Assembly (NCBI RefSeq): GCF_001746365.1
Contig: NZ_MJAJ01000004.1
Location: forward strand, 186,001-250,000
DNA from: Streptomyces sp. LUP30
Lineage (GTDB): Bacteria; Actinomycetota; Actinomycetes; Streptomycetales; Streptomycetaceae
Direction: 5' to 3'
DNA: 64,000 nt
In this document: in pieces, positions 1 to 33,707 of the stretch
How positions within the stretch are numbered: position 1 is the first letter of the stretch
Layout: each line of letters starts with the position of its first letter
Notes under the pieces: generated by a model
The model's database searches: none
The model's input: only the letters and a program-made list of their open reading frames with translations
What the model was told of the DNA's origin: nothing
Made by a program: the position numbers and the translations under genes

Positions 1-1616
1 ATCCAGCCCACGCCGCTCGTGGTGCAGGCGGCCGACGCGCCGGTGGCGGCCGGGGTGATGTGGAGATTGGACGGTACGGCGGGTGGGATGTCGAACTTGG
101 TGGTGAGGGTCAGCGTGGTCGACAGGCGCAGATAGTCGTCGTTGCCGGAGGTCTGCGACTCGTTTCCGTACAGGCCTATGGTCCAGGTGTTGGTGCCGGC
201 GCCGAAGGTGCCGGCCGCGTCATAGCCGTCCCCGTCCTGGTCGGCGATCTTCTGGGCCTGGTCGGTGACGTGGAAGGTGGCGGTGCTGTTGCTGCAGGAG
301 CTGTTGGAGTTGGCGCCGCTGGGCACGGTGTCGGTCACCGGCGGAAAGGCGGTGTCGTGGACGCCGGGCCGTGACAGCCAGTCGGTGCTGGAGCTGATCG
401 CATTCGTGGTGTGGAGTGTGAGGGGCTGGTTCTGGCTGCAGTCCCAGCTGGCCGCGTAGGTGGTGGAGATCTTCACGTAGGCGTCGTAAACGACGAACGC
501 CGGGTGCAGTCCGCTGGTGTTGATCGCCCAGTACGAGCGCTCCAGGCCGATACCGCAGACGCCGCCCCATCGCTGATAGCCCGCGCCCTGGCCGTTGGTC
601 TGTGCCTTGTCGTACTGCGGTGAGTTGCTGCACGTCGAGCTGGAGTAGACCTCGGTGTAATGACCGGCGGTGGAGGACACCGGGTTGGTGTACGGGTCGA
701 TGTACACCGGATAGGCGGTGTCCGGGGCAGTGAGCATGCCGGCGTCCGGGATCAGCGTCAGGGCCTTGTTCGTGGCGGTCATGCCCACGGGCTTGGTGTC
801 GGCTCCGGGCCCGGGACCGTCCACGGAGGACGTCAAGCCGGCGGCCGGACCGGCCTCGTGGGAGGCGACGGGCGTCGAGCCGGAGTCCCACATCAGAGGC
901 TGGGGGCTCGTGTAGGCCAGATCGCCGTCCAAGGCGGTGGCGCTCATGCTGTCGGACGAGGTGGTGGTCAGGGTGAGGCCCTGGGCGGCGGTGGCCAAGG
1001 TGAGCTTCTGCAGCTGGGGGTTGGCTGCGGCCTCGGCGTCGTGGACGATCAGGACGTCGCTGAAACCGCCTTGGTCTGTGACGGACACCGACAGATCCAC
1101 CCCCGGCAGCACAGAGGCGTACAGCGCGGTGTCACCGCTGACGTCCGGCTTCGGCAGAGTGAACGGCAGGGTGAGGGCCATGCTGGGCCCGTCGGCGTGG
1201 TTGAGGGTGACCAGAGGGCCGTCGCCGCCGCCGGAGAGGATGACCCCGTTCGGTGTGGCTCTGGGCGTGTACCTACCGTGGCCGTCCGGGACCAGGGTGC
1301 CGTCCACCTGGGTCCAGACGCCGTCCTTGAGGACCCGGGTCGGCAGCGCGCTCGTGGTGTTGGCGAAGGTGCCGTCCGGAAGTGCCTCGGTGGTGGAGAC
1401 CTCTGTGGTGAGGGCGTCGACGGGGACTGGTCGTCCGGTGGACATGGCCTGGCTCTGTGCGGCCAGCAGCGGATCCGCCGGGGTGGGCGCGAAGTCGTCG
1501 GCTGTGGCGGGCAGCACGGGCAAAGCCGTGAACAAGCCGAGTACGGTGGCGAAGAGGGCCAGACGATGAGTCGAGGCACTACGTCTGCGACCGGCGCGTA
1601 TCGGTGGTCTGAACAC
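1..1616 (-). CDS. Secreted wall-type protein paired with the RHS gene, 3' end outside window
   Basis: An open frame of 538 codons runs from a GTG at 1616 off the left edge with no stop. The start is set by AGGAAG eight bases upstream. The N-terminus has four to five arginines, a hydrophobic stretch (LALFATVLGLFTALPVLPA) and a likely cleavage after ATA, so it is a Sec-exported protein. The following part is Ser/Thr/Gly-rich with beta-type repeats, and around residues 270-480 it resembles the DNRLRE/LamG-like wall proteins that commonly sit beside RHS genes in Streptomyces; that assignment is from family resemblance. The gene is divergent from the RHS gene at 1856, sharing a 239-base intergenic region. 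It may itself end in a toxin or a LamG domain, which cannot be seen here. Confidence 0.75.
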   Translation of the reverse strand, partial: MFRPPIRAGRRRSASTHRLALFATVLGLFTALPVLPATADDFAPTPADPLLAAQSQAMSTGRPVPVDALTTEVSTTEALPDGTFANTTSALPTRVLKDGVWTQVDGTLVPDGHGRYTPRATPNGVILSGGGDGPLVTLNHADGPSMALTLPFTLPKPDVSGDTALYASVLPGVDLSVSVTDQGGFSDVLIVHDAEAAANPQLQKLTLATAAQGLTLTTTSSDSMSATALDGDLAYTSPQPLMWDSGSTPVASHEAGPAAGLTSSVDGPGPGADTKPVGMTATNKALTLIPDAGMLTAPDTAYPVYIDPYTNPVSSTAGHYTEVYSSSTCSNSPQYDKAQTNGQGAGYQRWGGVCGIGLERSYWAINTSGLHPAFVVYDAYVKISTTYAASWDCSQNQPLTLHTTNAISSSTDWLSRPGVHDTAFPPVTDTVPSGANSNSSCSNSTATFHVTDQAQKIADQDGDGYDAAGTFGAGTNTWTIGLYGNESQTSGNDDYLRLSTTLTLTTKFDIPPAVPSNLHITPAATGASAACTTSGVGW

Positions 1617-1855
1617 GTGGCGAGCTTCCTTCGGTTCGCGGGCAGCGGGGTGGGGGAAGCCCGATTGCCACTCGGCAGTGATCAATTTCGGCACAGAAAA
1701 TACACACGCTCTGCCAAGTAGAGGCACGGTCTTGTCATCGAGATGGCAAAGGGTCTTGAGTCGCGATCATGGCCGAACCTAGCCTCCGCTCGATCACTCG
1801 CACGTGTGGTCTGGCGATGTGACGGTCTCTCAAGGCCGTGTTCCGGGGGGTACGC
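1617..1855. promoter_or_regulatory. Divergent promoter region of the two secreted giants
   Basis: This 239-base gap separates two divergent starts, so both promoters must lie in it or in the genes. The centre (about 1680-1800) is relatively AT-rich for this genome. No clear sigma-factor box could be assigned by eye. The right end carries GGGGGG at 1844-1850, which serves as ribosome site for the GTG at 1856. Confidence 0.4.
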
Positions 1856-4800
1856 GTGAGTGGCAGACGGCGATGGTTCGCGGGCGTGTGGCATCGAAGA
1901 TTCCTGAGTGGGCTGGGACCCTGGACGATTCCTGTCGCCCTCTTCGCGCTGCTCCTGCCGGCGGCGATCGCCACGGGCTTCGGCACCCCGGGATTCCTTC
2001 CCGGACACAGGGCCGACGGCGACGACGGGTTCGGCCACCACGGAGGCTTCCGCTTCGACGGTGAGGTCTGGAACCCCAAGAATCTCCCCGCGCCCCTGAC
2101 CGTCGGGCATCACGCCCTGCGGAAGAAGACCCCCCACCCCGAGGGCGCCGGCGCACTGGGTACTTATCGGGCGCGCGGGCCTCAGTGGCCTAAGGCGGGC
2201 ACCGCCACCGTCGCCTTGGGCGCCCACGGTGCGGCGAAGCCGGTCAAGGCCGGTGAACTGCCGGTCTGGGTGACACAGGCCGACGACAGACACCCTGTCG
2301 GCGAGGTCCGCGTACAGACCGCCTCCCACGCGCAGACGCTCAGGGCAGGCGCCAACGGCATGCTGCTGGGCATCACACCGTCCGGCGCGGCCACCGCAGG
2401 CGGCCGGGTGCGCGTGGTCGTCGACTACGCCGCGATCGCCAAGGCATACGGCGGCGGCTACGGCTCACGGCTGCAGCTGGTGCAGTTGCCGGCATGCGCG
2501 CTGACCACCCCGCAGCGGGCCGAATGCCAGAAGCGCACCCCGATCGCGTTCACCAACCGCCCCACCGCCGAACAGCTGACGGCGACCGTCACCCTGGCCT
2601 CACCCGACACCGAGCCCGCGCCCGAGAAGGCAGAGGTCCCCGAACAGACGAAAGGCCCCGACCAGGCAGCTACCGCGGACGGCCCGCAGACGATGTCGGT
2701 CCGCACCGCGCCCCTGGCGGCGACCGCCACGACAGGCACCACGGCGCTGGCGGTCACCTCTGGCACCTCGGGCTCCCAGGGCGACTACGGCGCCACCACG
2801 CTGTCGGCCGCCGGCACCTGGCAGGCCTCCGCCACCGGCTCGTTCACCTACGCCTACCCGATCTCGGTGCCCTCCGCGGTCGGTGGCAACGCGCCGTCCG
2901 TCGGCCTGAGCTACGACTCGCAGACCGTCGACGGCGAGACCACCGCCCGCAACTCCCAGGCCTCGTGGGTCGGGGACGGCTGGAGCTACCAGGTCGGTTC
3001 CGTGGAGCGCGCCTACCGCAAGTGCGGCTCCCTCCTCGACTCCGGTGGAGACAAGATCCTCAAGGGCTCCGGCGACGAATGCTGGGGCGGGGACAACGCC
3101 ACGCTGTCCTTCGGCGCGCACTCCGGAGTACTGGTGCCGGACGGCGTGGACTCCAGCGTGACCGGGGAGATCAGGCAGTGGCGGTTGCAGGGCGACGACG
3201 GCACCCTCGTACAGGAATTGTCCGGAGCCGACAACGGCCTGCACGACGGCGTCTACTACCGGGTCCTGACCACGGATGGCACAGCCGCCTACTTCGGCGC
3301 CGACCATTCCCCGAACGGTGCGGGCACCGCTGCCACCATGCCCGCGAACCCCGCCGACCCCTCCACGCACTCCGCCTGGGGCGTCCCCGTCCTGCACCCG
3401 CAAGCGACGGACCCCTGCTACGACAGCGCCAAGGGGAAGGCGTCCCAGTGCGACAAGCCGGAGGGCTGGCGCTGGAACCTCGACTTCGTGGTGTCGCCGG
3501 CCGGATTCGTGCAGCGGTACGACTACACCACCGAGTCCAACTACTACGATCTCGGCGGCGGTCAAGCGGGCGAGTCGACCGACCCGGACGACACAGGCAC
3601 TCTCACCTCGTACACCCGCGGCGGCGCGCTGACGCTGCTCTCGTACGGATACACGCTGGCCGATGAGCAGGCCGGGCGTACTCCGGCAGCCGAGGTGGAC
3701 TTCGGCCTGGCCCAGCGGTGCCAGACCACTTCCACGTTCACCGACTGCTCCGCGTCCAACCTGAAGGACTCCACGGCGACGCACTGGCCCGACGTGCCGT
3801 GGGACCTCCACTGCGACTCGACGGACAAGACCAAGCTCCCGGACGGCGCCACGACTGTCCCCGACGACGTGTGCATCACGTCAGGGCCCAGCTTCTGGAC
3901 CACCACGCGGCTGGACTCCATCACCACCAAGGTTCACGTGAAGGCGACCGACCAGCTCACCGCGGTCGACTCGTACAAGCTGGGCCAGATCTACTCTGAC
4001 GCGGGCGGCACGGTCGACCCCGTCACCGGTACCACGGTGGACCCGAAGGACGCCGGGATGCTGCAGGCCGTGATGTGGCTGCAGTCCATCCGGCACACCG
4101 GAAAGGACACCTACGGCAACGGCAACAGCGATATCACGCTGAACCAGGCGTCGTTCACCGGCACCGAGATCGACAACCGGGTCAACGACGACTCCCCGTC
4201 CGCCCCTCCGCTGTATCGGCCGCGCATCTCGAGCGTGCAGACCGAGACCGGTGAGTCGATCGCAGTCGAGTACAACTCGGCTCCGTGTGCGGGCAGATCG
4301 CTCTCCATCACCAAGGCGGACAGCAACTCCAACTCCTGCTATCCCGTCTATTGGACTGTGCCCGGCGCCTCCAAGCCGGTCGCCGACTGGTTCAACAAGG
4401 TCACGGTCGACAGCGTGGCCGTGTCCGACCTGACCATCGCGGGCCAGTACAAGCCGGATGCACAGAACAACCCGGCGGGTTCCGAGACCCAGATCTCCCG
4501 CTACAGCTACTCCGGCCCGGCCTGGCATCGCGACGACTCGGCGCTGACCGACGACCAATACCGGACCTGGGACCAGTTCCGCGGCTTCCGCACCGTCACC
4601 GTGCAGACCGGCCAGAGCCCCGAGCCCGTCACTCAGCGGACCACCACCTACCTGCAGGGCATGGACGGCGACTACAAGGCCGACGGCAGTCGCCGCTCCG
4701 TCACCGTCGACGCCAAGGTCGGCGGCAGCACCGTGCTGAGCGTGACCGACTCGGGCCAGTTGTCCGGCAGCATGCTCGAGGACGACACCTACACCCAGGC

Positions 4801-17485: not shown

Positions 17486-19957
17486 TCACCGTCCGGTACG
17501 GAGTCGTGCTTCGGCGATCCGTTTTTCCATGTTCCCTGCCCCTGCGGTGTCTTCGGCGATCCGATAGGAGCGTAGAGCTTGCTCGAAGCAGTAGACCGCT
17601 TGGGGCACATCCTCCAGTGCGAGATGCGCGTCGCCCAGCCCAGCGAGGGTGCCCCCCGCCATGCTGTGGTCGCCATCCTCGCTGAAGCGTTGCAAGGCGT
17701 GCCCAAAGTGCTCGATCGCGGCCTCCGGGCAGCTGAGGCCGAGCTGGCACATGCCGAGACGGAACAGGGTGTGGCCCTCTCCGTGTCGGTCCCCGCCTTC
17801 GCGGAACTGATCCCGTGCCCGCTCGTAGTAATCCAGAGCCTCGGCATGGCGCTCCATACCGGTGAGCGCGTTACCGAGCCCGTTGAGGGTGTGGCCGATG
17901 CCATGTGCGTCCTCGCACTCGACGAAGCGGTCGAGCGACCTGAGGAACAGGTCTAGGGCGCGCTGATGGGAGTCGACCGTGAAGTACACGTGGGCGAGCC
18001 CATGCAGTACCCGGGCCTCGGCGTGTCGGTCGCCCAACTCCTCGAACAGAACCAGAGCCTGCTCGTGGCTGGCGATGGCCTCGGCATGACGGACGAGCCC
18101 GCCATAGGCATCGCCCAGCCCATAGCGCACCCTGGCCTCGGCCGCGCGGTCGCCGCATGCAACAGCCGCGTCCAGGGCGACGAGGTGGGTCGCAACGAGG
18201 TCGGCAAGGTGCCGCCTGCGGAAGTAGGCGACGTATAGGGCCACCGGGATCTTCCAGGCGTGCTCCAGGTGGCCCTCGCGCGCTGCCGTCCGGATCACGT
18301 CGAGGAACGCCGGCCGTTCACGGTCGTACCACGCCAGCGCAGACGACAGGTCGGCAAAGATCGGTACCGCTTGCCCGGTGCCAACGACCGAAATTATCTC
18401 TTCCGGTTCCCGTGCGGCTGGGACGCCGGTCTCGTCCCGTTCCTCGGTCAAGTTCGGCGACCAGAGCAGGCGGTCGAGCGCCCGGGCATGCTCCAAATAC
18501 CAGTCGAGCATGCGCCGTTCCGCCGTGCGCCGTTCCCGCTTGGGCTCGTCGTTCATGCAGCACTCCAAGGAGAACGAGCGGAGTAGGTCGTGCATCCGCC
18601 ATCTACGGGGGCCCTCCGGGGCATAGGCTGCCCCCACGGGTAGGTGCTCCTCGATCAGGCAGGCCGCTGCGAGTCTGTCCAGCAAAGACTCTGCCATGTC
18701 GGTCCGCAAACCCGCCAAGGCGGCGACCACCGGCGTCGGCACGTCGGTACCGCCGGATAGGCCGAGCAGTCGGAACAGCCGGGCCTGCGCGCGGGGCAGC
18801 ACCTGGTAGGACCAAGAGCAGGCAGCGCGCACGGCGCTGATCCCATCGTCGTCGTCCGTGCTGAGGTAGTCCAGGCCCCGGGCCTCCAATCGGCGCGCGA
18901 GCTCGGCCAGTGACACCCCCGGCTGGGCGATACCGTGGGCAGCCGCGATACGGAGGGCCAGCGGCAGTCGGGCGCAGCGGTGCACCAACTCGCCCGCTGC
19001 CTGTAGCTCGCGGTCGACCCTTCCGGCACCCAGCACTTCCCGCAGCAGCTCCAGGGCTTCCGGCTCGGTCAGTACATCTAGGTCAAGGCGTCTCGCGCCC
19101 TCCCGAGCGATGAGTCCGTCCAGCCGACTCCGGCTGGTCACCACAACCGCTCCGTTCGCACCGCCCGGCAGGAGCGGGCGTACCTGCGCGGCATCCCGAG
19201 CGTTGTCGAGCATGACGAGGACGTCGCGCGAGCCGAGGAGGCTCCGGAAGAGCGCGCCGCGCCCCTCGATATCCTGCGGGATGAGTTCGTCTGTGGTGCC
19301 GAGAGCGCGCAGAAACGCGCCGAGCACTTCGGAGGGATCGACTGCCGATCCGTGTGGGTCGAATCCACGGAGGTCGGCGTAGAGGTCGCCGTCGGCGAAC
19401 CGGTCACGAGCCTCGTGCGCCCAACACAGAGCCAGCGCCGTCTTACCGACGCCAGCGGTCCCGGAGATAACGCTGATGGGCGCTGCCCTCGGCTCACCGG
19501 GGGAGTCCATCCAGCGAAGCTCATTTCGCCGGCCGACGAACCGGGAGACTTGCCGAGGCAACTGGCGCGGCACCACTCCGACCCGGAGCTGCCCTCCCGC
19601 ATCCTGGGGACGCCCGGGATACGCCCTGGGCGACCGGCCGCTCCGGCGCTGCTGCCGTTCCGCCCGAGCCCGCTCCCACGCCTGCTCCCACCAGTCATCG
19701 GGCTCGGCGACGAACCCGGGAGTCGTCCGGCGAGCCCGGCCCCGCAGGAACACCACCAGCCACCGCGCGGTCCTGGCCTCGGCTGGGACGTTCTTGCCGT
19801 TGTACCAATCGCTCCACGACGACGAGGTCACCTTTACCGGCGGGTTTTGCGCGGCGGCCTGCCGAATGATCGCCGCGCCCGTTGGCTGGGCCGCAGCGTT
19901 CCACAGCACACGCAGCGCCCGTGCCCACATCCCGGTCGCGTCCAGCGGCTCGCCCAT
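17486..19957 (-). CDS. STAND ATPase: HTH-like N-terminus, NB-ARC, TPR repeats
   Basis: The product is 823 residues from ATG 19957, preceded by AAGGGGG. An earlier in-frame start would add about 67 non-coding-looking residues. Residues 10-70 look like a degenerate XRE-type fold (SSSWSDWYNGKNVPAEARTA). A WWEQAW segment and a basic linker follow. NB-ARC starts with GTAGVGKTALA (about 166-176), then VLVMLDNARD (Walker B), VVVTSRSRLDGL and RLPLALRIAA (GLPL-like). The winged-helix MHD position reads MHDLL (about 460). At least six TPRs fill 560-823 (e.g. AIASHEQALVLFEELGD). This is the architecture of AfsR-like regulators and of STAND defence sensors; without a BTAD domain, the output is unknown. 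It is divergent from the micro-gene at 20157. Confidence 0.85.
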   Translation of the reverse strand: MGEPLDATGMWARALRVLWNAAAQPTGAAIIRQAAAQNPPVKVTSSSWSDWYNGKNVPAEARTARWLVVFLRGRARRTTPGFVAEPDDWWEQAWERARAERQQRRSGRSPRAYPGRPQDAGGQLRVGVVPRQLPRQVSRFVGRRNELRWMDSPGEPRAAPISVISGTAGVGKTALALCWAHEARDRFADGDLYADLRGFDPHGSAVDPSEVLGAFLRALGTTDELIPQDIEGRGALFRSLLGSRDVLVMLDNARDAAQVRPLLPGGANGAVVVTSRSRLDGLIAREGARRLDLDVLTEPEALELLREVLGAGRVDRELQAAGELVHRCARLPLALRIAAAHGIAQPGVSLAELARRLEARGLDYLSTDDDDGISAVRAACSWSYQVLPRAQARLFRLLGLSGGTDVPTPVVAALAGLRTDMAESLLDRLAAACLIEEHLPVGAAYAPEGPRRWRMHDLLRSFSLECCMNDEPKRERRTAERRMLDWYLEHARALDRLLWSPNLTEERDETGVPAAREPEEIISVVGTGQAVPIFADLSSALAWYDRERPAFLDVIRTAAREGHLEHAWKIPVALYVAYFRRRHLADLVATHLVALDAAVACGDRAAEARVRYGLGDAYGGLVRHAEAIASHEQALVLFEELGDRHAEARVLHGLAHVYFTVDSHQRALDLFLRSLDRFVECEDAHGIGHTLNGLGNALTGMERHAEALDYYERARDQFREGGDRHGEGHTLFRLGMCQLGLSCPEAAIEHFGHALQRFSEDGDHSMAGGTLAGLGDAHLALEDVPQAVYCFEQALRSYRIAEDTAGAGNMEKRIAEARLRTGR

Positions 19958-20156
19958 CCCGCTGCCCCCTTTGCCGGACCGGATTCCGGACCGGAACCAT
20001 CCCGGAAACCGCGGGACCGGCCTCCGCCCCGAGGCCAATAGCCTGCCCTGCGCTACCACCAACGCGGAGCAGAACCGGAAAACCGTCCGGACCGGCCCCA
20101 TCGACAGCGAACGGCCACGCACCCCGCATGGCCGGCAAACCGTAGAGGGGGACCTC
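19958..20156. promoter_or_regulatory. Divergent promoter with three CCGGACCGG boxes
   Basis: CCGGACCGG occurs at 19974-19982, 19986-19994 (12 bases apart, about one helical turn) and 20087-20095. Each lies between the STAND gene and the micro-gene, so they may bind a regulator controlling both, possibly the STAND protein through its N-terminal domain. Chance is possible in GC-rich DNA. Confidence 0.45.
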
Positions 20157-20282
20157 ATGTTCGACCGTCAGTTTCTGCGCCGCCTGACCCACACCGCCGT
20201 CCAAGTTGCCGTCACCGCCGCCGCCACCGCAGCTGGCTCCGCCCCCGTCCAGCTGGCCATCTGGTGGGTCACCCACCAATAA
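20157..20282 (+). CDS. 41-residue hydrophobic/amphipathic micro-protein opposite the STAND gene
   Basis: ATG 20157 is preceded by GAGGGGG five bases away, a strong ribosome site. The product starts MFDRQFLRRLTHTAVQ and has an Ala/Val/Thr-rich middle (VAVTAAATAAGSAPVQ) and ends IWWVTHQ. It has a basic amphipathic N-terminus and a short apolar helix, too short for a normal transmembrane protein but suited to membrane association or to a signalling peptide. No family is recognised. Its divergent position and shared repeats suggest it works with the STAND ATPase as ligand or effector; that is inference. Confidence 0.55.
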   Translation: MFDRQFLRRLTHTAVQVAVTAAATAAGSAPVQLAIWWVTHQ

Positions 20283-22124: not shown

Positions 22125-23135
22125 TCAGCGGTCGAGGAAGGTGTTCACCTCGGTGCCGAACTTGACGGCGTACTGGTAGAGGAAGCCGTGGCCGGCGTCC
22201 GGGTAGATGTGCAACTGGGCGTTGGGGAGGTACTTGGCCAGCAGGTGGGAGTTCTCGGCGGGCATCAGGATGTCGCTCTCGCCGTCGGCGACCAGGACCG
22301 GCTGGAAGAGGGACTTCAGGCGGACCAGCCTGGACTTGTCGGTGATGCCCCATTCGGACCACGCGGTGAGCTGGTGATCGCGGGTGGCGAGGCTCGTGGG
22401 GGTGTCGGGGTCGGTGGTGCGCTGCCCGAGGCGTTGCAGGAACTCCGCTCCCGCGGCCTGGCTGGAGGCGGTGTTCTTGAAGAACAGGAAGAGATAGTCC
22501 TCAGGGCCGGGATCGTCCTTCAGGGTCCTCTGCAGGATGTCGGGGTCGGTTGCGCGCTGGTCCACTCCACCCTGGGGACCGGTGGCGGCCAAGACGACGC
22601 GGCGGACCTGCCAGGGGCGGCGCAGGGCGACCTCCTGGGCGACCTCGCCGCCGAGGGAGAAGCCGAACAGGTCGTAGCGTGGCAGCTCGAGGGCGTCGAT
22701 GAAGTCGATGGCGTCCAGGGCCATCTGCTGGTCGGTGCTGGGGGTGATGCCGGTGGAGCCGCCGACGCCGGCGTTGTCCACGAGGATGACCTCGCGCTCG
22801 GCGGCGATGGTGTCGATGAGCTTGGGGTCCCAGCCGTCGATGTTGCCGCGGAAGTGCTGGAAGAAGACCAGGGGCACGCTGTCGGCCGTGGGGTGGCCGA
22901 AGCGGCGGTACAGGTAGGTGACGCCGTTTGCGGCCTTGACGCGCAGGTTGGGGGCGGTGCTGGCGCTCACCGCGTTCCGCGTCTGGGTGACCGCCTGCCG
23001 CGTACCGCTGGAGCTGCCGCTCACGGCATTGGCCATGCTCGGCGCCGTGGCGGCGACAGCCGCGACGAGCGACATGGTGGCCAGCGCCATCGCGGTGCGC
23101 CGGGAGCCACGGGTAGGCCGGTTGGTTGAGGACAT
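22125..23135 (-). CDS. Secreted alpha/beta hydrolase
   Basis: The product is 336 residues from ATG 23135 (MSSTNRPTRGSRR...); AAGGA sits six bases upstream, closer to ideal than for the ATG two codons earlier. The first 35 residues form a Sec (possibly Tat-like, RGSRRTAMA) signal ending MANA. The fold has FFQHFRGNIDGWDP (oxyanion region), the nucleophile elbow GFSLGGEVA with Ser160, an acid after PVLVADGESDILMP, and the catalytic His in DAGHGFLYQ. It resembles haloperoxidase/epoxide-hydrolase-type hydrolases. It is paralogous to the protein at 27500-28351 (FRGNIDGWDP against VRGTLDWWDP). It lies last of the large genes in the train and is preceded by the duplicated leader. Confidence 0.85.
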   Translation of the reverse strand: MSSTNRPTRGSRRTAMALATMSLVAAVAATAPSMANAVSGSSSGTRQAVTQTRNAVSASTAPNLRVKAANGVTYLYRRFGHPTADSVPLVFFQHFRGNIDGWDPKLIDTIAAEREVILVDNAGVGGSTGITPSTDQQMALDAIDFIDALELPRYDLFGFSLGGEVAQEVALRRPWQVRRVVLAATGPQGGVDQRATDPDILQRTLKDDPGPEDYLFLFFKNTASSQAAGAEFLQRLGQRTTDPDTPTSLATRDHQLTAWSEWGITDKSRLVRLKSLFQPVLVADGESDILMPAENSHLLAKYLPNAQLHIYPDAGHGFLYQYAVKFGTEVNTFLDR

Positions 23136-23253: not shown

Positions 23254-23439
23254 TCAAGGCGGGCCCGTCGCCGTAGGTCTGAAGGCCCCGATGGGTCCTG
23301 TGGGCGGTCGAGGTGCGGAGCGGAGGTCATGGCCTGCGCGAGTGTGGGCGAGCTGGGGGCTGGGACCTGGGAGCTGGGGCCTGGGAGTGACGACGCCGGT
23401 GATGCGGGGGAGGGGAAGGAACTCCCGCATGATCGACAT
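23254..23439 (-). pseudogene. Diverged copy of the 60-residue leader gene
   Basis: Begins MSIMREFLPLPRITG, matching MSIMREFLRRPRLTG of the intact leader at 25223. After about 16 codons the similarity is lost and the frame becomes Pro-rich and non-coding in look. It stops about 118 bases before the hydrolase start, whereas the intact leader overlaps its downstream gene. Part of the internal duplication. Confidence 0.55.
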
Positions 23440-23570
23440 GCCCAGAACCTAGGGAGCGGCCGTGTCGTCGGGCGTCATCCTGAGCGCCCGGCAGGGTCAT
23501 CCGTCAGGCCGACACCGAGTCGCCGCCGGGGCGAACCGGTCCGCTCTCGTGGGCCAGGACGGCGGCCGTG
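23421..23570. repeat. Partial duplication, copy 2 (response-regulator 3' end plus leader start)
   Basis: Matches 25205-25330 with substitutions and one insertion of roughly 15-20 bases. On the minus strand it encodes AHESGPVRPGG against AYESGLVRPGG, the last residues of the response regulator, and then the leader start. It is therefore a remnant of a second regulator-leader unit. Confidence 0.65.
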
Positions 23571-23632
23571 TCCGGGCCGTCGGTCGCCCCGCCCCGGCCC
23601 GATCCGATCCGATCCGACCGCCCGTTCCGTAC

Positions 23633-24099
23633 TCAGCCGGTGCCCTTCGGCAGCGGTTCGTCCAGGAGGAAGTCCCTCAGCAGCGCGGTGTAGCGGCCGG
23701 GCTGTTCGCCCGAGATGGAGTGTCCGGCTCCCTTGACGGTCACCAACTCGGAGCCCCCGAGGGTGTGTTGGTACTCGGCGGTCACGGCGGGCTTGATGAA
23801 GTCGCACTCCCCTCGCATGATCAGAGAGGGGACGTGCAGGGTGCGCAGACGGGGCCGGGGGTCGGGAAGCCGCTCGAAGTCCTTGACGGTCATCTGGTTG
23901 CTGTAGAAGCCCTGAGGGTTGTCGTGCGCCGTGGTGTGCGGAGCGTCCTCGCACGAGGTGCTGTCTTTTCCCGGTAGGCGACGTTCTCCGCGAGCAGATC
24001 GGGGAGCCGGTCCCACTCCAGCCCCGCGACGATGCGTCGCCACTCCGTGATTCCCGCCTCCGCCGCATGGTGCGGCCGGGCCGTCTGCGTGTCGGACAT
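23633..24099 (-). pseudogene. Fused remnant: SnoaL/NTF2-like start joined to alpha/beta hydrolase end
   Basis: From ATG 24099 the frame reads MSDTQTARPHHAAEAGITEW and LPDLLAENVAYRE, the start of a SnoaL/NTF2-fold protein. Near 23975 it loses sense, and another frame takes over with NPQGFYSNQMTVKDFERLPD, VPSLIMRGECDFIKP, GAGHSISGEQP and a stop at 23633. That is the C-terminal third of a proline-iminopeptidase-like hydrolase, with its acid (GECDFI) and His (GAGHS). The two halves are out of frame and each lacks its active remainder. The join looks like a deletion between two adjacent genes. Confidence 0.7.
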
Positions 24100-24210
24100 G
24101 ATGTCGACGTCTTTCCGTTCGGTTTCGGCGGAGGGGTGATCGGCGCGCTTCTCACCGGTCTCACCGAAAAGGAGGCGACGCGGATCGGGCGTCTCCGCGA
24201 GGGGACGTGC

Positions 24211-25044
24211 TCAGGCCTGTTCGTTGATGAGGCCGGCGTAGTGGCCCAGGTCGCGCTCGATCTCCTCGAGACCGATCTCGGCGATGGCCTTTCCGAGCTG
24301 CGGCACGCGCGCCTGGAATCCCGGCCAGTCGACCGATTCCGCGAACTCCGCCCAGGACGCCCGCAGGTCGGCCACCGGCGGCAGGGTCGACCGGTTGATC
24401 TGTGCCTTGGCGGCCAGGACGGACTGCTTGTCGAACGAGGCGATACGCGCGGCCACGCCGCTCACGAGGTTGTCCAGTTCGGTGTCGGCGACGGTCCGGG
24501 TCACCCACCCGTACCGCTCGGCCGTGTCGGCGTCGAAGTCCTGGCCGGTGAGGATCGCTTCGAGCGCGCGGTCCCGCCCCAGCAGCCGGGCCAGACGGTC
24601 GCTGCCGCCCCCGCCGGGGACGATGCCGATCGCGACCTCGGGCTGGCAGAAGAACGCCTCCTCGCGGCTGGCGTAGCGCAGGTCGAAGGCCAGGGCGATC
24701 TCGTCCCCGCCACCCCTGGTCCGCCCGCGGACGGAGGCGATGCTGATGAACGGGGCACTGGTCAGGCTCGTGACCAGGTCGACCCACGTCGGTGTCCCGT
24801 CGGCGCTGTTCAGCGCCAGGAGGTCGGCCACTTGGCCGAGATCGGCGTGGTTGTAGAAGTACCCGGGCGTGCCGCTGTCGAAGATGACGACCTGAACCTG
24901 CTCGTCCCGGCTCAGCTCGTCGACGACGTCGGCCAGTTGAGCAACGGTGTCCGCCCCGACGACGTTCACCGGCGGATTCGAGAAGGTGACCTTGCGGATC
25001 TTCGGCGCCACTGTCCCGATGCTGAACATGCTGTGCTGCGTCAT
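24211..25044 (-). CDS. Enoyl-CoA hydratase/isomerase family protein
   Basis: The product is 277 residues from ATG 25044 with TGGAG nearby, overlapping the leader stop as ATGA. Crotonase features: VTFSNPPVNVVGAD (about 20), the oxyanion-hole strand FISIASVRGRTRGGGDEIALAFDLR (about 105-130), and the PEVAIGIVPGGGG helix start (about 143) with the usual acidic position. The C-terminal part (AAKAQINRSTLPP) is typical. The reaction would be hydration, isomerisation or cleavage of an acyl-CoA; substrate unknown. Translation is probably coupled to the 60-residue leader. Confidence 0.85.
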   Translation of the reverse strand: MTQHSMFSIGTVAPKIRKVTFSNPPVNVVGADTVAQLADVVDELSRDEQVQVVIFDSGTPGYFYNHADLGQVADLLALNSADGTPTWVDLVTSLTSAPFISIASVRGRTRGGGDEIALAFDLRYASREEAFFCQPEVAIGIVPGGGGSDRLARLLGRDRALEAILTGQDFDADTAERYGWVTRTVADTELDNLVSGVAARIASFDKQSVLAAKAQINRSTLPPVADLRASWAEFAESVDWPGFQARVPQLGKAIAEIGLEEIERDLGHYAGLINEQA

Positions 25045-25223
25045 GGTGTGCTCCAGTGCAGAAATTCTGACGGTGCTGAGCGGAAGTCCCGGTACCGCTG
25101 TGCCGGCCTGTCGGCGAACACCCGGTTCAGTTCGACCGCCACCAGCCGTGCCCTCGGCGTCAGCTGTCGCAGGATCGCGCCGGTGAGTCGGGGGCGGCGC
25201 AGAAACTCCCGCATGATCGACAT
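25041..25223 (-). CDS. 60-residue leader protein coupled to the crotonase gene
   Basis: ATG 25223 opens MSIMREFLRRPRLTGAILRQ and the frame ends FLHWSTP with TGA overlapping the crotonase ATG (ATGA). Codon use is typical of real genes. The product is basic and partly amphipathic; no family recognised. It lies 58 bases after the response-regulator stop. It could be a small protein or a leader whose translation sets that of the crotonase. Confidence 0.6.
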   Translation of the reverse strand: MSIMREFLRRPRLTGAILRQLTPRARLVAVELNRVFADRPAQRYRDFRSAPSEFLHWSTP

Positions 25224-25330
25224 GCCCCGAATCTAGGTACCGGCCGTGCCGTCGGGCGTCCTCCCCGGCGCCCGACGGGGTCATCCGCCAGGGCGAACCA
25301 GTCCGCTCTCGTAGGCCACGACGACGGCCT
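25205..25330. repeat. Partial duplication, copy 1 (intact regulator end plus leader start)
   Basis: Reference copy of the segment repeated at 23421-23570. It spans the last codons of the response regulator, the gap, and the first codons of the leader. Confidence 0.65.
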
Positions 25331-25940
25331 GGATGCGGTCACGGACGTGCAGTTTGGCGAGGATCCGGGCCACGTGCGTCTTGACCGTGGTCTCGCCGAG
25401 GAACAGCTTCTCGGCGATCTCCCCGTTGTTCAGCCCGCGGCCGACCAGACACAGCACCTCCCGCTCACGCTCGGTGAGGGTGTCGAGGCGGGCGTCGGGG
25501 AGGGGGACGACCGCGCCCGTGACGTACCGGTCGATGAGACGCCGCGCCACGGAGGGGGCGATCATCGTTTCGCCGCGCAGTACCCCGCGGAGCGCGACGA
25601 GCATCTCGGCGGCCGAGGTGTCCCTGACGAGAAAGCCACTGGCTCCGGCACGCAGCGCCGCGTAGGCGTACTCGTCGCGGTCGCAGGCGCTGAGCACCAG
25701 GACGTGGGTCCCGGGCAGTTCGGCACGCACCTGCGCGGTTGCCGAGATGCCGTCCAGACACGGCATCCGCACTCCCATGACGACGAGGTCCGGGCGCAGC
25801 GTGAGTGCCTGCGCCACAGCGGACTCGCCGTCCCCGGCCTCGCCGACGACAGTGAAGTCCGGTTGGCTGTCGACCACCCCGCGCAGTCCGGCCCGCATCA
25901 ACTCCTGGGCGTCACAGATCAGTACGCCGGCCGTCGTTAT
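25281..25940 (-). CDS. NarL/LuxR-type response regulator lacking the phospho-acceptor Asp
   Basis: Receiver plus LuxR helix-turn-helix, about 219 residues if begun at 25940. The frame there reads ITTAGVLICDAQELMRAGLRG, where relatives begin with Met; the codon is ATA, with GGGAGG nine bases upstream. The only normal in-frame starts come later (TTG 25901 and the adjacent ATG) and would remove the first receiver strand. Key residues are altered: VVMGVRMP has Gly56 where the phosphorylated Asp should be, the acidic pair is D-A, and the switch Lys is Arg (GFLVRDT). The C-terminal DNA-binding domain (LTEREREVLCLVGRGLNNGEIAE, TVKTHVARILAKL) looks intact. No sensor kinase is adjacent. It is either a phosphorylation-independent regulator or a decaying gene. 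Confidence 0.75.
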   Translation of the reverse strand: MTTAGVLICDAQELMRAGLRGVVDSQPDFTVVGEAGDGESAVAQALTLRPDLVVMGVRMPCLDGISATAQVRAELPGTHVLVLSACDRDEYAYAALRAGASGFLVRDTSAAEMLVALRGVLRGETMIAPSVARRLIDRYVTGAVVPLPDARLDTLTEREREVLCLVGRGLNNGEIAEKLFLGETTVKTHVARILAKLHVRDRIQAVVVAYESGLVRPGG

Positions 25941-30875: not shown

Positions 30876-33707
30876 TCAGGGGACGGTCGGCAGGCCGAGG
30901 CGGCGTAGCCGCACGCGGATGCCGTCCGAGCCCGGGACGCCGAGTTCGTCGAGGATGTCCGCGGCGCGCCGGGCGGCCCGCCGTGCTGCGTCGGCCTCGC
31001 CGGCGGCCCGGAGGCTCTCGCAGAGGTGGGCGAGTACGTCGGCCTCGTAGTAGCGGTCCCCGAGACCGTGGAACAGCGCGACGGCGTTGCGGTAACAGGT
31101 TGCTGCCCGGCGGTGGTCGCCGAGGTGATGGTGGGCGTAGCCGAGGCTGTCCCAGGTGTCCGCCTGCCCGTCCCGGACGCCGAGTTCGGCGAAGAGCTCC
31201 AGCGCCTGCCCGCAGCACGCGAGGCACCGGCGGTGGTCGCCGAGCTGCGCGTGATACCAGCCGACCGAGTTCAGGGCCCGGGCCTGTCCGGCCCGATGAC
31301 CCAAGGAGGTGTACAGGTCGAGGGCCTCCTGGGCACAGGCCAGGGCTTCGGGGCAGGCGTCCCGCCGGGCGTGCAGGCGGGCCAGGTCGAGGTGGGTGTG
31401 CGCCAGCTCCGTACGGTTGCCGAGTCCTTGGTGGAGATCCAGGGCGCGGGTGAGGTGGGTGAGCGCGTCGTCCAGTCGCATCAGGCGGGTGCAGGCACGG
31501 CCGAGGCCGCTGCGGGCCTCGGCTTCCCCAACCCGGGAAGCCGAGCGCAGGGCGGCGTCCAGGGCGGCCTCCTGCGCTGCGGCCCAGTCGGACCAGTGGC
31601 CGCGTCGCTGAAGAAACGTGGTCAGCGCGCGCGTCAGCTGCCAGGTGGGGGCATCGGGCGCCTGCGTGGTGACGCCCGACCGGTGCGCCACCGCCAGGAG
31701 CACAGGGTGCTCGGCTGTGAACCAGGCGAGAGCCTCCCCGTGGTCCGCGGCGTGCTCGGGGGAGACGCCGGGGGCCGGGGGCGGCAGCGCGATCGGGTCG
31801 CGGTGGGGATCCAGCATGCGGTCCGCGGAGTGCGCGGAGTGCAGGTAGTGGCCGAACAAGCGGTCTTCGGCCGCGTGCGTCTCACCGGCTGCGTCCGCGG
31901 CGCCGGCGAGTTCCGCGGCGTACATCCGCAGCAGGTCGTGGAGCACGTATCTGCCGCGCGAGTGCTCGGTGACCAGGCAACTGTCGGCCAGCGCGGTCAG
32001 CAGCCGGCCCGCGTGCCGGACGGGGAGCCCGGCCAGGCTCGCGGCGGCGGGCACGCTGATGTCCGGGCCGGGGTGAACGCCGAGCAGCCGGAACATCCGG
32101 GCGGCCTGGGGATGCAGGGTGCCGTACGACCAGGAGAACACGGCGCGTATGTCCGCCCTCGTGTCCTCGTTGCCGAAGCTGTCCAGCCCGTCGGGGGAGT
32201 CCTGGGCGTCCCGGAGTTCGGCTGCGAGCCGTGCCAGGCTGAGCCCCGGCTCGATCGCCGCGCGGGCCGCCACGATCACCAGGGCCAGCGGCAGCCGCGC
32301 GCAGCGGCTCACGATCTCGTCCACCGCCAGCGGTTCGGACATCACGCGCTCGGCCCCTGTCCGGCGAGCGAGCAGCCGTCGGCACTCCGCCGCGGGCAGC
32401 ACATCCAGGACGAGACTCCGGGCGTCTTCGAGGGCGATCAGGCCGGAGAGCCGGTTCCGGCTGGTCACCAGGGTGAAGCACCCCGGACTGCCGGGCAGGA
32501 ACGCCCGTACCTGCTCGGCGTCCCGTGCGTTGTCGAGCATCACCAGCATCCGCCGTCCCGCCAGCATGCTCCGGTACAGCCCGGTCTGCGCCTCCGGGCT
32601 GACCGGCATGTGCTGCGGGAGCACGCCCAACGTCTCCAGCAGCCGGGGCAGCGCCTCCGCCGGGGTCACGGGTGGCCGCGAAGGCTCGAAACCATGGAGG
32701 TTCACGTAGAGCTGGCCGTCCTCGAACCACTCGGCCACCCGGTGGGCCCAGTGGACGGCCACAGCCGTCTTCCCGACGCCCGCGGTCCCGGAGAGGGTCG
32801 AGACCACCGCCACCGCGGGGCCGCCCATGCCCTCCGCGAGGATCTTGTCGAGCTGGGCCAGCTCCTCCTCCCGGCCGGTGAAAGCCGGTACGTCCAGGGG
32901 CAGACGCGCCAGAACCGGCACGGACCGCGGTCGGGCCGAAGGCAGCGGATCCGTGACCTCGGCCGGCTCGGGGGCTCCCCGCAGGATCTCCCGGTGGAGT
33001 CGCCGGAGCTCGGTCCCCGGATCGGCGCCCAGTTCGTCGGCCAGGCGCTTCCGGGTCCGGGCGAAGCACTCCAGGGCCTCGGAACCGCGCCCCGCCTCGT
33101 ACAGCGCCCGCATCAGCACGGCCACCAGCGGCTCCACGAGCGGGTGTTGGTCGATCAGCTCGGGCACCCGGTCGATCACCACCGCGTGGTTGCCCACCGC
33201 CGTCTCCGCGTGGGCCCACGCCGTGACCGCGTCCAGCCGTTGCCGTTGCCAGGTGTCGCGCATCCGCGACACCCACTCCCCGGACAGTCCGGCGAGCGGC
33301 TCCCCGCGCCACAGATCCAGGGCCTCGCGGAGTATGGTCACCTGCTCGGCGTGGCCCCGGTCGGCTCTGCGGGCGTCGGCGACCAGGCGGTGAAACCGGT
33401 GGAGGTCCACGTCTTCGGAGTCGACGTCCAGCACGTAACCGCCGTTCCGCCGAAGCAGGCCCTGCGTGCGGACGGCCCCGGTGGCCGCCAACACCCGCCG
33501 GATGCGGGCCACATGGGCGTACAGCGCCTGACGCGCCCCCTCCGGCGGATCCTCACCCCACACACGCCTCATCAGTGTCTCGAGCGGCACTGCCCGGCCG
33601 GCGTCCACCGCGAGCGCCGCCATCACGCTCCGCCGCTGCGGAGGACCTACGTCGATCGGTCCTCGGCCCCATAACTCGACGGGCCCGAGAAGTCTGAACG
33701 TCACCAC
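30876..33707 (-). CDS. AfsR/SARP-type regulator: OmpR-like DNA-binding and BTAD, NB-ARC, TPR
   Basis: The product is 943 residues. It opens MVTFRLLGPVELWGRG, the SARP winged-helix start, with RRVWGEDPPEGARQALYAHVARIR as recognition region; BTAD follows to about 250 (DLHRFHRLVADAR, ALDLWRGEPLAGL, ALMRALYEAGRGSEAL). NB-ARC has GTAGVGKTAVAVHW (about 303-316), MLVMLDNARDAEQ, LVTSRNRL and RLPLALVIVAARA. C-terminal TPRs span about 690-920. AfsR-like proteins bind direct repeats near -35 boxes of secondary-metabolism or cell-wall genes, gated by nucleotide. No biosynthetic cluster is adjacent here. It shares NB-ARC and TPR with the protein at 17486, but that one lacks the SARP part. Confidence 0.92.
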   Translation of the reverse strand: MVTFRLLGPVELWGRGPIDVGPPQRRSVMAALAVDAGRAVPLETLMRRVWGEDPPEGARQALYAHVARIRRVLAATGAVRTQGLLRRNGGYVLDVDSEDVDLHRFHRLVADARRADRGHAEQVTILREALDLWRGEPLAGLSGEWVSRMRDTWQRQRLDAVTAWAHAETAVGNHAVVIDRVPELIDQHPLVEPLVAVLMRALYEAGRGSEALECFARTRKRLADELGADPGTELRRLHREILRGAPEPAEVTDPLPSARPRSVPVLARLPLDVPAFTGREEELAQLDKILAEGMGGPAVAVVSTLSGTAGVGKTAVAVHWAHRVAEWFEDGQLYVNLHGFEPSRPPVTPAEALPRLLETLGVLPQHMPVSPEAQTGLYRSMLAGRRMLVMLDNARDAEQVRAFLPGSPGCFTLVTSRNRLSGLIALEDARSLVLDVLPAAECRRLLARRTGAERVMSEPLAVDEIVSRCARLPLALVIVAARAAIEPGLSLARLAAELRDAQDSPDGLDSFGNEDTRADIRAVFSWSYGTLHPQAARMFRLLGVHPGPDISVPAAASLAGLPVRHAGRLLTALADSCLVTEHSRGRYVLHDLLRMYAAELAGAADAAGETHAAEDRLFGHYLHSAHSADRMLDPHRDPIALPPPAPGVSPEHAADHGEALAWFTAEHPVLLAVAHRSGVTTQAPDAPTWQLTRALTTFLQRRGHWSDWAAAQEAALDAALRSASRVGEAEARSGLGRACTRLMRLDDALTHLTRALDLHQGLGNRTELAHTHLDLARLHARRDACPEALACAQEALDLYTSLGHRAGQARALNSVGWYHAQLGDHRRCLACCGQALELFAELGVRDGQADTWDSLGYAHHHLGDHRRAATCYRNAVALFHGLGDRYYEADVLAHLCESLRAAGEADAARRAARRAADILDELGVPGSDGIRVRLRRLGLPTVP

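Follow-up and report, generated by a model that had tools for sequence, protein, structure and literature searches.

A stretch of 64,000 nucleotides from Streptomyces sp. LUP30 (hereafter the window) contains two copies of one short segment, on the same strand and 1.78 kb apart, each followed by a gene for a different enzyme. The question raised by this locus is how the same sequence came to stand ahead of both genes. A preliminary description had regarded the segment as the end of a response regulator gene, a gap and the start of a leader peptide beginning with MSIMREFL, and had explained the two copies as the decayed products of a tandem duplication that comprised a whole unit of regulator, leader and enzyme. 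Here, the repeat was delimited and compared with the corresponding loci of related genomes with respect to gene content, conservation and the position of its copies.

Sequences and sampling

A search of 295 genomes of the same genus detected the repeat in its long form in 6 further genomes, four of which contained it twice, with 5.5-5.9 kb between the copies. One further genome (G392) was added by a protein search with the enoyl-CoA hydratase/isomerase family enzyme (ECH) of the cluster in 392 genomes. Named genomes were scanned as well; 53 loci resulted, and 15 of these were mapped. Altogether, 21 sequences from the window, the numbered genomes and the named genomes were mapped, and 15 of them hold the cluster. 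Nocardia, Catenuloplanes, S. canus 299MFChir, Rathayibacter, Micromonospora and OV320, in which the cluster is absent or partial, were left out of counts and trees. S. caniscabiei (G264 and L107) and strain LUP47B (G308 and L110) appeared under two numbers each and were counted once. The core tree was based on SDR, abH2, LtrA and ECH and rooted on Lentzea, and the tree of the response regulator (RR) was rooted at the midpoint.

A pattern search allowing at most 3 mismatches found this locus only, with 14 sites in 8 of the 392 genomes, and a megablast search for a plasmid origin gave no match among 72,556 plasmid records.

Extent and content of the repeat

A repeat search of the window gave two blocks, one between 23394-23512 and 25178-25296 (84% identity) and one between 23523-23567 and 25285-25329 (89% identity). 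In a blastn comparison of 23.2-24.1 kb with 25.0-26.0 kb, 23394-23567 (copy B) and 25178-25329 (copy A) were joined in a single alignment of 174 nt (74.7%, E 2.9e-34) with a 22-nt insertion in copy B, and the next-best alignment had an E value of 0.11. The duplication, placed before at 23421-23570 and 25205-25330, is real with these corrected limits; since the similarity reaches far past the 20-base MSIMREF block, it is not just that block set in DNA of like composition. No third copy was present in the whole genome (G000, 9.18 Mb), where these two were the sole matches. Read on the minus strand, the repeat holds the last codons of a NarL/LuxR-type RR, the RR stop, a 57-nt gap and ATGTCGATCATGCGGGAG (MSIMRE); its contents are thus the regulator end, the gap and the MSIMREFL start, as had been described.

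All features of the window named here lie on the minus strand. The RR gene (25281..25940; Pfam Response_reg and GerE) encodes an orphan NarL/LuxR-type response regulator. Behind it, the copy A intergenic region (25224..25280) contains an imperfect inverted repeat (25249-25278) and a -10-like TAGATT located 6 nt upstream of the ATG, with CTAG starting at 25236. The MSIMREFL frame of copy A (25041..25223), a remnant of a methyltransferase gene (MT), overlaps as ATGA with the start of the intact crotonase gene ECH (24211..25044; Pfam ECH_1 2.8e-33; start assigned by homology). Between ECH and copy B, at 23619-24099, the 5′ piece of a SnoaL-like gene (23983..24099) is joined to the 3′ piece of abH3, a third alpha/beta hydrolase gene (23619..23982; 91% to strain LUP47B); copy B therefore reached its site in the window within a patchwork. 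The SnoaL-like gene follows ECH in Streptacidiphilus carbonis, where its frame matched SnoaL_2 with 1.9e-5, just under the curated cutoff. Copy B consists of the last codons of the regulator gene with the 22-nt insertion (23497..23567), a putative promoter region (23440..23496; CTAGGTT starting at 23452) and an MSIMREFL frame that is followed by the 5′ spacer of abH1 (23254..23439 together; MT-homologous part about 23304-23439, with an insertion of ~28 nt that shifts the frame). The alpha/beta hydrolase gene abH1 itself (22125..23135) codes for 336 aa (Pfam Abhydrolase_1 8e-19).

Two long frames flank the cluster, at 17486-20158 (890 aa) and 30876-33707 (943 aa). They are alike in their ATPase-like and repeat-like sequence, and the second presumably resembles an AfsR/SARP-type regulator. 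The gene labelled HK571 encodes an MFS efflux transporter and not a kinase.

The frame behind MSIMREFL

MSIMREFL forms the N-terminal end of a SAM methyltransferase of class I (~200 aa) and aligns with the MT of both G270 and S. carbonis; the gene is intact in several relatives and gutted in the window. The frame runs on as an MT of ~190-209 codons in G270, S. flaveus, S. caniscabiei and S. carbonis. The MT of G270 (200 aa) begins MSIMREFLRSPRLTGAIAPSS, carries a SAM-binding domain (Methyltransf_25, 2.3e-12, residues 40-137) and contains VVELGSGTG, which we take to be motif I. Compared with S. carbonis, copy A of the window lacks codons 18-54 (with motif I) and all codons past about 88, so that what had been called an intact leader at 25041-25223 is an MT gene reduced to a frame of 60 codons ending in the ATGA at the ECH start. 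The distance from the MSIM start to ECH is 782 nt in S. carbonis, 179 nt in the window and 137 nt in G269. The reading as a leader peptide or attenuator was rejected on the ground that the frame opens an MT gene.

Arrangements of the cluster in relatives

In S. carbonis, the order is TetR-SDR-abH2-LtrA-RR-MT-ECH without copy B, and no abH1 ortholog was found in the longer contigs of its genome (best match 44%; the contig with the cluster ends 295 nt past ECH). Seven Streptomyces genomes (S. coeruleorubidus, S. caniscabiei, S. flaveus, G270, G269, G244 and G392) have the order TetR-[RR tail-MT start]-abH1-SDR-abH2-LtrA-RR-MT-ECH, with an MT that is intact or decaying. A second arrangement, LtrA-RR-[MT start]-abH1-ECH, was found in four genomes (LUP47B, S. 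hokutonensis, S. canus DSM 40017 and G252); in G252, pieces of MT (about codons 116-132 and 177-200) lie downstream of abH1, which means that abH1 sits inside MT there. The window represents a third arrangement, LtrA-RR-gutted MT-ECH-pieces-[RR tail-MT start]-abH1. In S. africanus and Lentzea the cluster contains no RR, MT or abH1.

Copy B is joined to abH1 in every locus that bears it (8/8), on varying sides of the cluster, and no abH1 of the relatives occurs without a link to either copy B or the 5′ end of MT. The boundary of RR and MT thus precedes the unrelated abH1 in eight B copies and four inserted copies. An intact MT is retained in three of the eight genomes with copy B. The frames of abH1 and ECH are intact in every locus having them, and dN/dS of abH1 ranged from 0.21 to 0.49 (nine pairs).

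A piece of ~70 nt resembling the 3′ part of abH2 is located between MT (or abH1) and ECH at L064 12574-12642, with equivalents in L108, L068 and L111, and from its sequence appears to be a relic of another hydrolase copy. It was considered as an abH1 relic and rejected, being closer to abH2 than to abH1, and is therefore no proof that abH1 formerly stood at that place.

Conservation of the putative promoter segment

Across the eight B copies, no indel occurs in the 79 columns from the RR stop to MT codon 6, that is, in the promoter and the first six codons, compared with 22 indels in the 334 columns of the RR tail, MT codons 7-33 and the spacer (chance about 0.009). The ATG and the following five codons are invariant (18/18 bases). 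Pairwise identity of the B copies was 0.83 in the promoter, barely above the 0.77 of the MT stub, and amounted to 0.75 in the spacer and 0.66 in the RR tail. Three of the eight B copies (G244, S. coeruleorubidus and the window) and three of the four inserted copies have a frameshift in the stub ahead of codon 33. In S. canus and LUP47B, different deletions removed the stub and the spacer and retained the promoter and the ribosome site of abH1, leaving 108 and 95 nt, respectively, between promoter and abH1.

CTAG and TAGNNT occur 6-7 nt upstream of the ATG, or of the AGG or GTG replacing it, in all 21 copies. For S. coelicolor, TANNNT promoters and ~21% leaderless mRNAs are reported in excerpts of PMC4895711. 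By this analogy, the motif and its spacing fit a promoter that is probably leaderless. The 7-bp arms of the inverted repeat in the gap pair in 78% of the cells over 21 sequences, and 38 of 300 column shuffles were equally good; no operator is therefore established from it. In most copies abH1 keeps its own 5′ spacer of ~180 nt with a ribosome site, and it may have a promoter of its own.

The orphan response regulator

The RR gene of the window has ATA at the start codon and no in-frame start upstream. In 12 other RR loci, the same codon is ATG in ten and GTG in one, and G392 has an ATG one codon earlier. The one full regulator noted before is thus present as a gene but lacks the expected ATG or GTG. 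The ATA may be a recent loss, and the RR may be dead in the window, in which case it would regulate nothing there. No second complete copy of the cluster RR was found in any of the 15 loci, and no kinase gene is adjacent to it.

The phospho-acceptor Asp is lost in seven of 13 loci and kept in six. It is replaced by Gly in the window, S. carbonis and S. canus, by Ala in S. flaveus, G270 and G269, and by Glu in G392. Some atypical orphan response regulators lack the usual phosphorylation site. In ten pairs, dN/dS was 0.12-0.25 for the RR and 0.08-0.23 for its receiver, which indicates that the gene is under purifying selection despite the loss of Asp; at such low ratios, the gene did not become functionless when Asp was lost.

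A divergent homologous set is located elsewhere in the same genome, where an MT faces a HisKA_3 kinase and a regulator (L033 4568-7275, G000:C51), the regulator being 61% identical to the cluster RR. Such a set also occupies 1317-3945 of the reversed L069. In LUP47B, a similar set is situated upstream of the cluster at a distance of a few kb, and an imperfect GTCGTAC...TACGAC repeat is found upstream of MT in most of the 12 loci of this set. It is plausible that such a set was the source of the cluster RR and MT.

Probable common origin of the copies

Between the RR tail and the start of abH1, the window's copy B can be aligned across the junction of MT and spacer with all seven upstream copies and the inserted ones. 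The same junction is present in all eight B copies and in two of the four inserted copies; in the other two it was removed by the deletions. Recognisable RR homology begins at alignment offsets 44-60, within 16 nt, in six of the eight B copies, and at 75 and 87 in the remaining two, which are more decayed. The duplication is old and common to the eight genomes, with copy B on either side of the cluster.

In trees of half copies, the MT half of the window copy B falls with the remaining B copies (support 89), and its promoter half falls with copy A of the window and the S. carbonis copy (support 85). We interpret this split as gene conversion between the copies, and it would also fit a partly separate origin. 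As evidence it is weak: each piece has ~90 nt, and re-rooting preceded the printing of the support labels, some of which may therefore belong to a neighbouring branch. In S. coeruleorubidus (L106 4146-4270 and 9519-9726), one promoter variant is common to copies A and B, an indication of gene conversion between the two.

The window and S. carbonis pair in both the core tree and the RR tree, and the two trees disagree on where the pair attaches. In both, the genomes with the inserted form fall together in one clade positioned among copy-B lineages; this favours, not strongly, the order of copy first and insertion later.

Discussion

The identity of the stub, the common junction with abH1, the positions in relatives and the lack of indels in the promoter and six codons are observations; promoter activity of the copied segment, regulation by the RR and the order of events we infer from sequence comparison. 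With some reservation, we consider it probable that a segment consisting of the RR tail, the promoter and the MT start was attached to abH1 as its promoter. The repeated segment would be a promoter-bearing gene boundary made up of the end of the orphan RR gene, a promoter of probably leaderless type and the opening codons of MT. In an ancestor of these Streptomyces, it would have been joined upstream of abH1, which thereby came under the MT promoter. The linked RR tail, promoter, MT start and abH1 would then have been relocated upstream of the SDR gene in seven genomes and behind ECH in the window, and in four genomes the linked unit would have entered the MT gene, probably by recombination through the repeat. 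A later gutting of MT in the window would have brought ECH to within 179 nt of the same promoter, so that two different enzymes would follow two copies of one promoter.

The tandem duplication proposed before is compatible with two same-strand copies 1.78 kb apart that are each followed by an enzyme gene, and both positions of copy B might in principle result from duplication of a block that then suffered different losses. Duplication and decay indeed remain part of the picture, but the terms leader, tandem and regulator-leader-enzyme unit do not. A second full RR is missing from all 15 loci, none of which contains two complete or nearly complete units, and S. carbonis has no copy B. The RR homology of six of the eight B copies breaks off at nearly one codon in genomes that carry copy B on either side of the cluster, and the sequence left of copy B in the window consists of the abH3 3′ and SnoaL-like 5′ pieces instead of the upstream part of RR. 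As a crotonase and an alpha/beta hydrolase (ECH_1 and Abhydrolase_1), ECH and abH1 belong to different families and are therefore not diverged copies of one duplicated enzyme. Tandem duplication of the whole unit is thus improbable. We give slightly more credit, while still regarding it as rather unlikely, to an initial insertion of abH1 into MT, as in the four-genome form, and later copying of the piece to the other two sites. It would explain in one step the RR tail and MT start ahead of abH1, and MT pieces flank abH1 on both sides in G252; against it, the inserted form is a single clade among copy-B lineages in the RR and core trees, and MT is still intact in three of the eight copy-B genomes.

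Two further readings concern function. That the locus is a neutral leftover of old rearrangements, with nothing functional in a cluster undergoing decay, would agree with the lost RR start, the gutted MT and the abH3 and SnoaL-like pieces in the window and with the broken MT of many relatives, but it is unlikely given abH1 and ECH frames that are intact wherever present, a promoter free of indels in any B copy, and the dN/dS of abH1 in nine pairs. Least credible of all is that each MSIMREFL frame encodes a genuine leader peptide or acts as a regulatory upstream frame for the next gene: intact MT genes of relatives begin in the same way, the frameshifts before codon 33 affect B and inserted copies alike, and the peptide is not kept past its first codons, even though the first six codons are invariant in all eight B copies and the ATGA overlap of copy A with ECH would allow coupling.

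If promoter capture is accepted, the repeat would constitute a record of it in several species, with a state before (S. carbonis, without the copy) and states after (copy upstream, copy downstream, and abH1 inside MT), and with the regulator at different stages of losing its phosphorylation site. A wider reading, which we regard as possible but doubtful, is that a promoter-plus-start cassette was passed among unrelated enzyme genes (MT, abH1 and, by the gutting of MT, ECH) and carried to three positions, while the orphan RR, still under selection, gave up phosphorylation several times through replacement of Asp by Gly, Ala or Glu. If true, the cassette and the RR would form a natural series showing how two-component output turns into a local regulon independent of phosphorylation. 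The locus also cautions that conserved short frames upstream of enzymes need not be leader peptides. In the literature on promoter capture with duplication or in Streptomyces, and on the cluster genes, no description of this locus was found.

Comparison with known systems

Among known enzymes, the MT of G270 resembles the lipid N-methyltransferases OlsG (NF041658; 1.7e-29, 102.9 bits, equivalog cutoff 350) and PmtA (NF045881; 7e-15, 55 bits, equivalog cutoff 250), the models covering most, or the first two thirds, of the protein. Neither cutoff is reached and the scores are far below them, so that OlsG/PmtA-like is the limit of naming, and the window differs further in holding a remnant only.

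The orphan Streptomyces response regulators BldM, WhiI and GlnR are called atypical in excerpts of PMC4125116 and PMC3087709, and the cluster RR is likewise an orphan. It differs in that its ortholog group mixes loci with and without the phosphorylation site; since the site is lost in some and kept in other loci of one group, the change looks recent and repeated.

Promoter capture is an already known kind of event, of which the present locus would be a clear natural series. According to excerpts of PMC11111574, it occurs by duplication or deletion, with his genes placed on new promoters in Salmonella and transferred genes activated in E. coli. There, as proposed here, copying or deletion of a segment puts a downstream gene behind a promoter that already exists, and short or no homologies are needed. 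The cases in those excerpts are laboratory selections or recent events, whereas the present locus has a segment of ~170-250 nt with gene ends on both sides that is kept across species and found at three positions.
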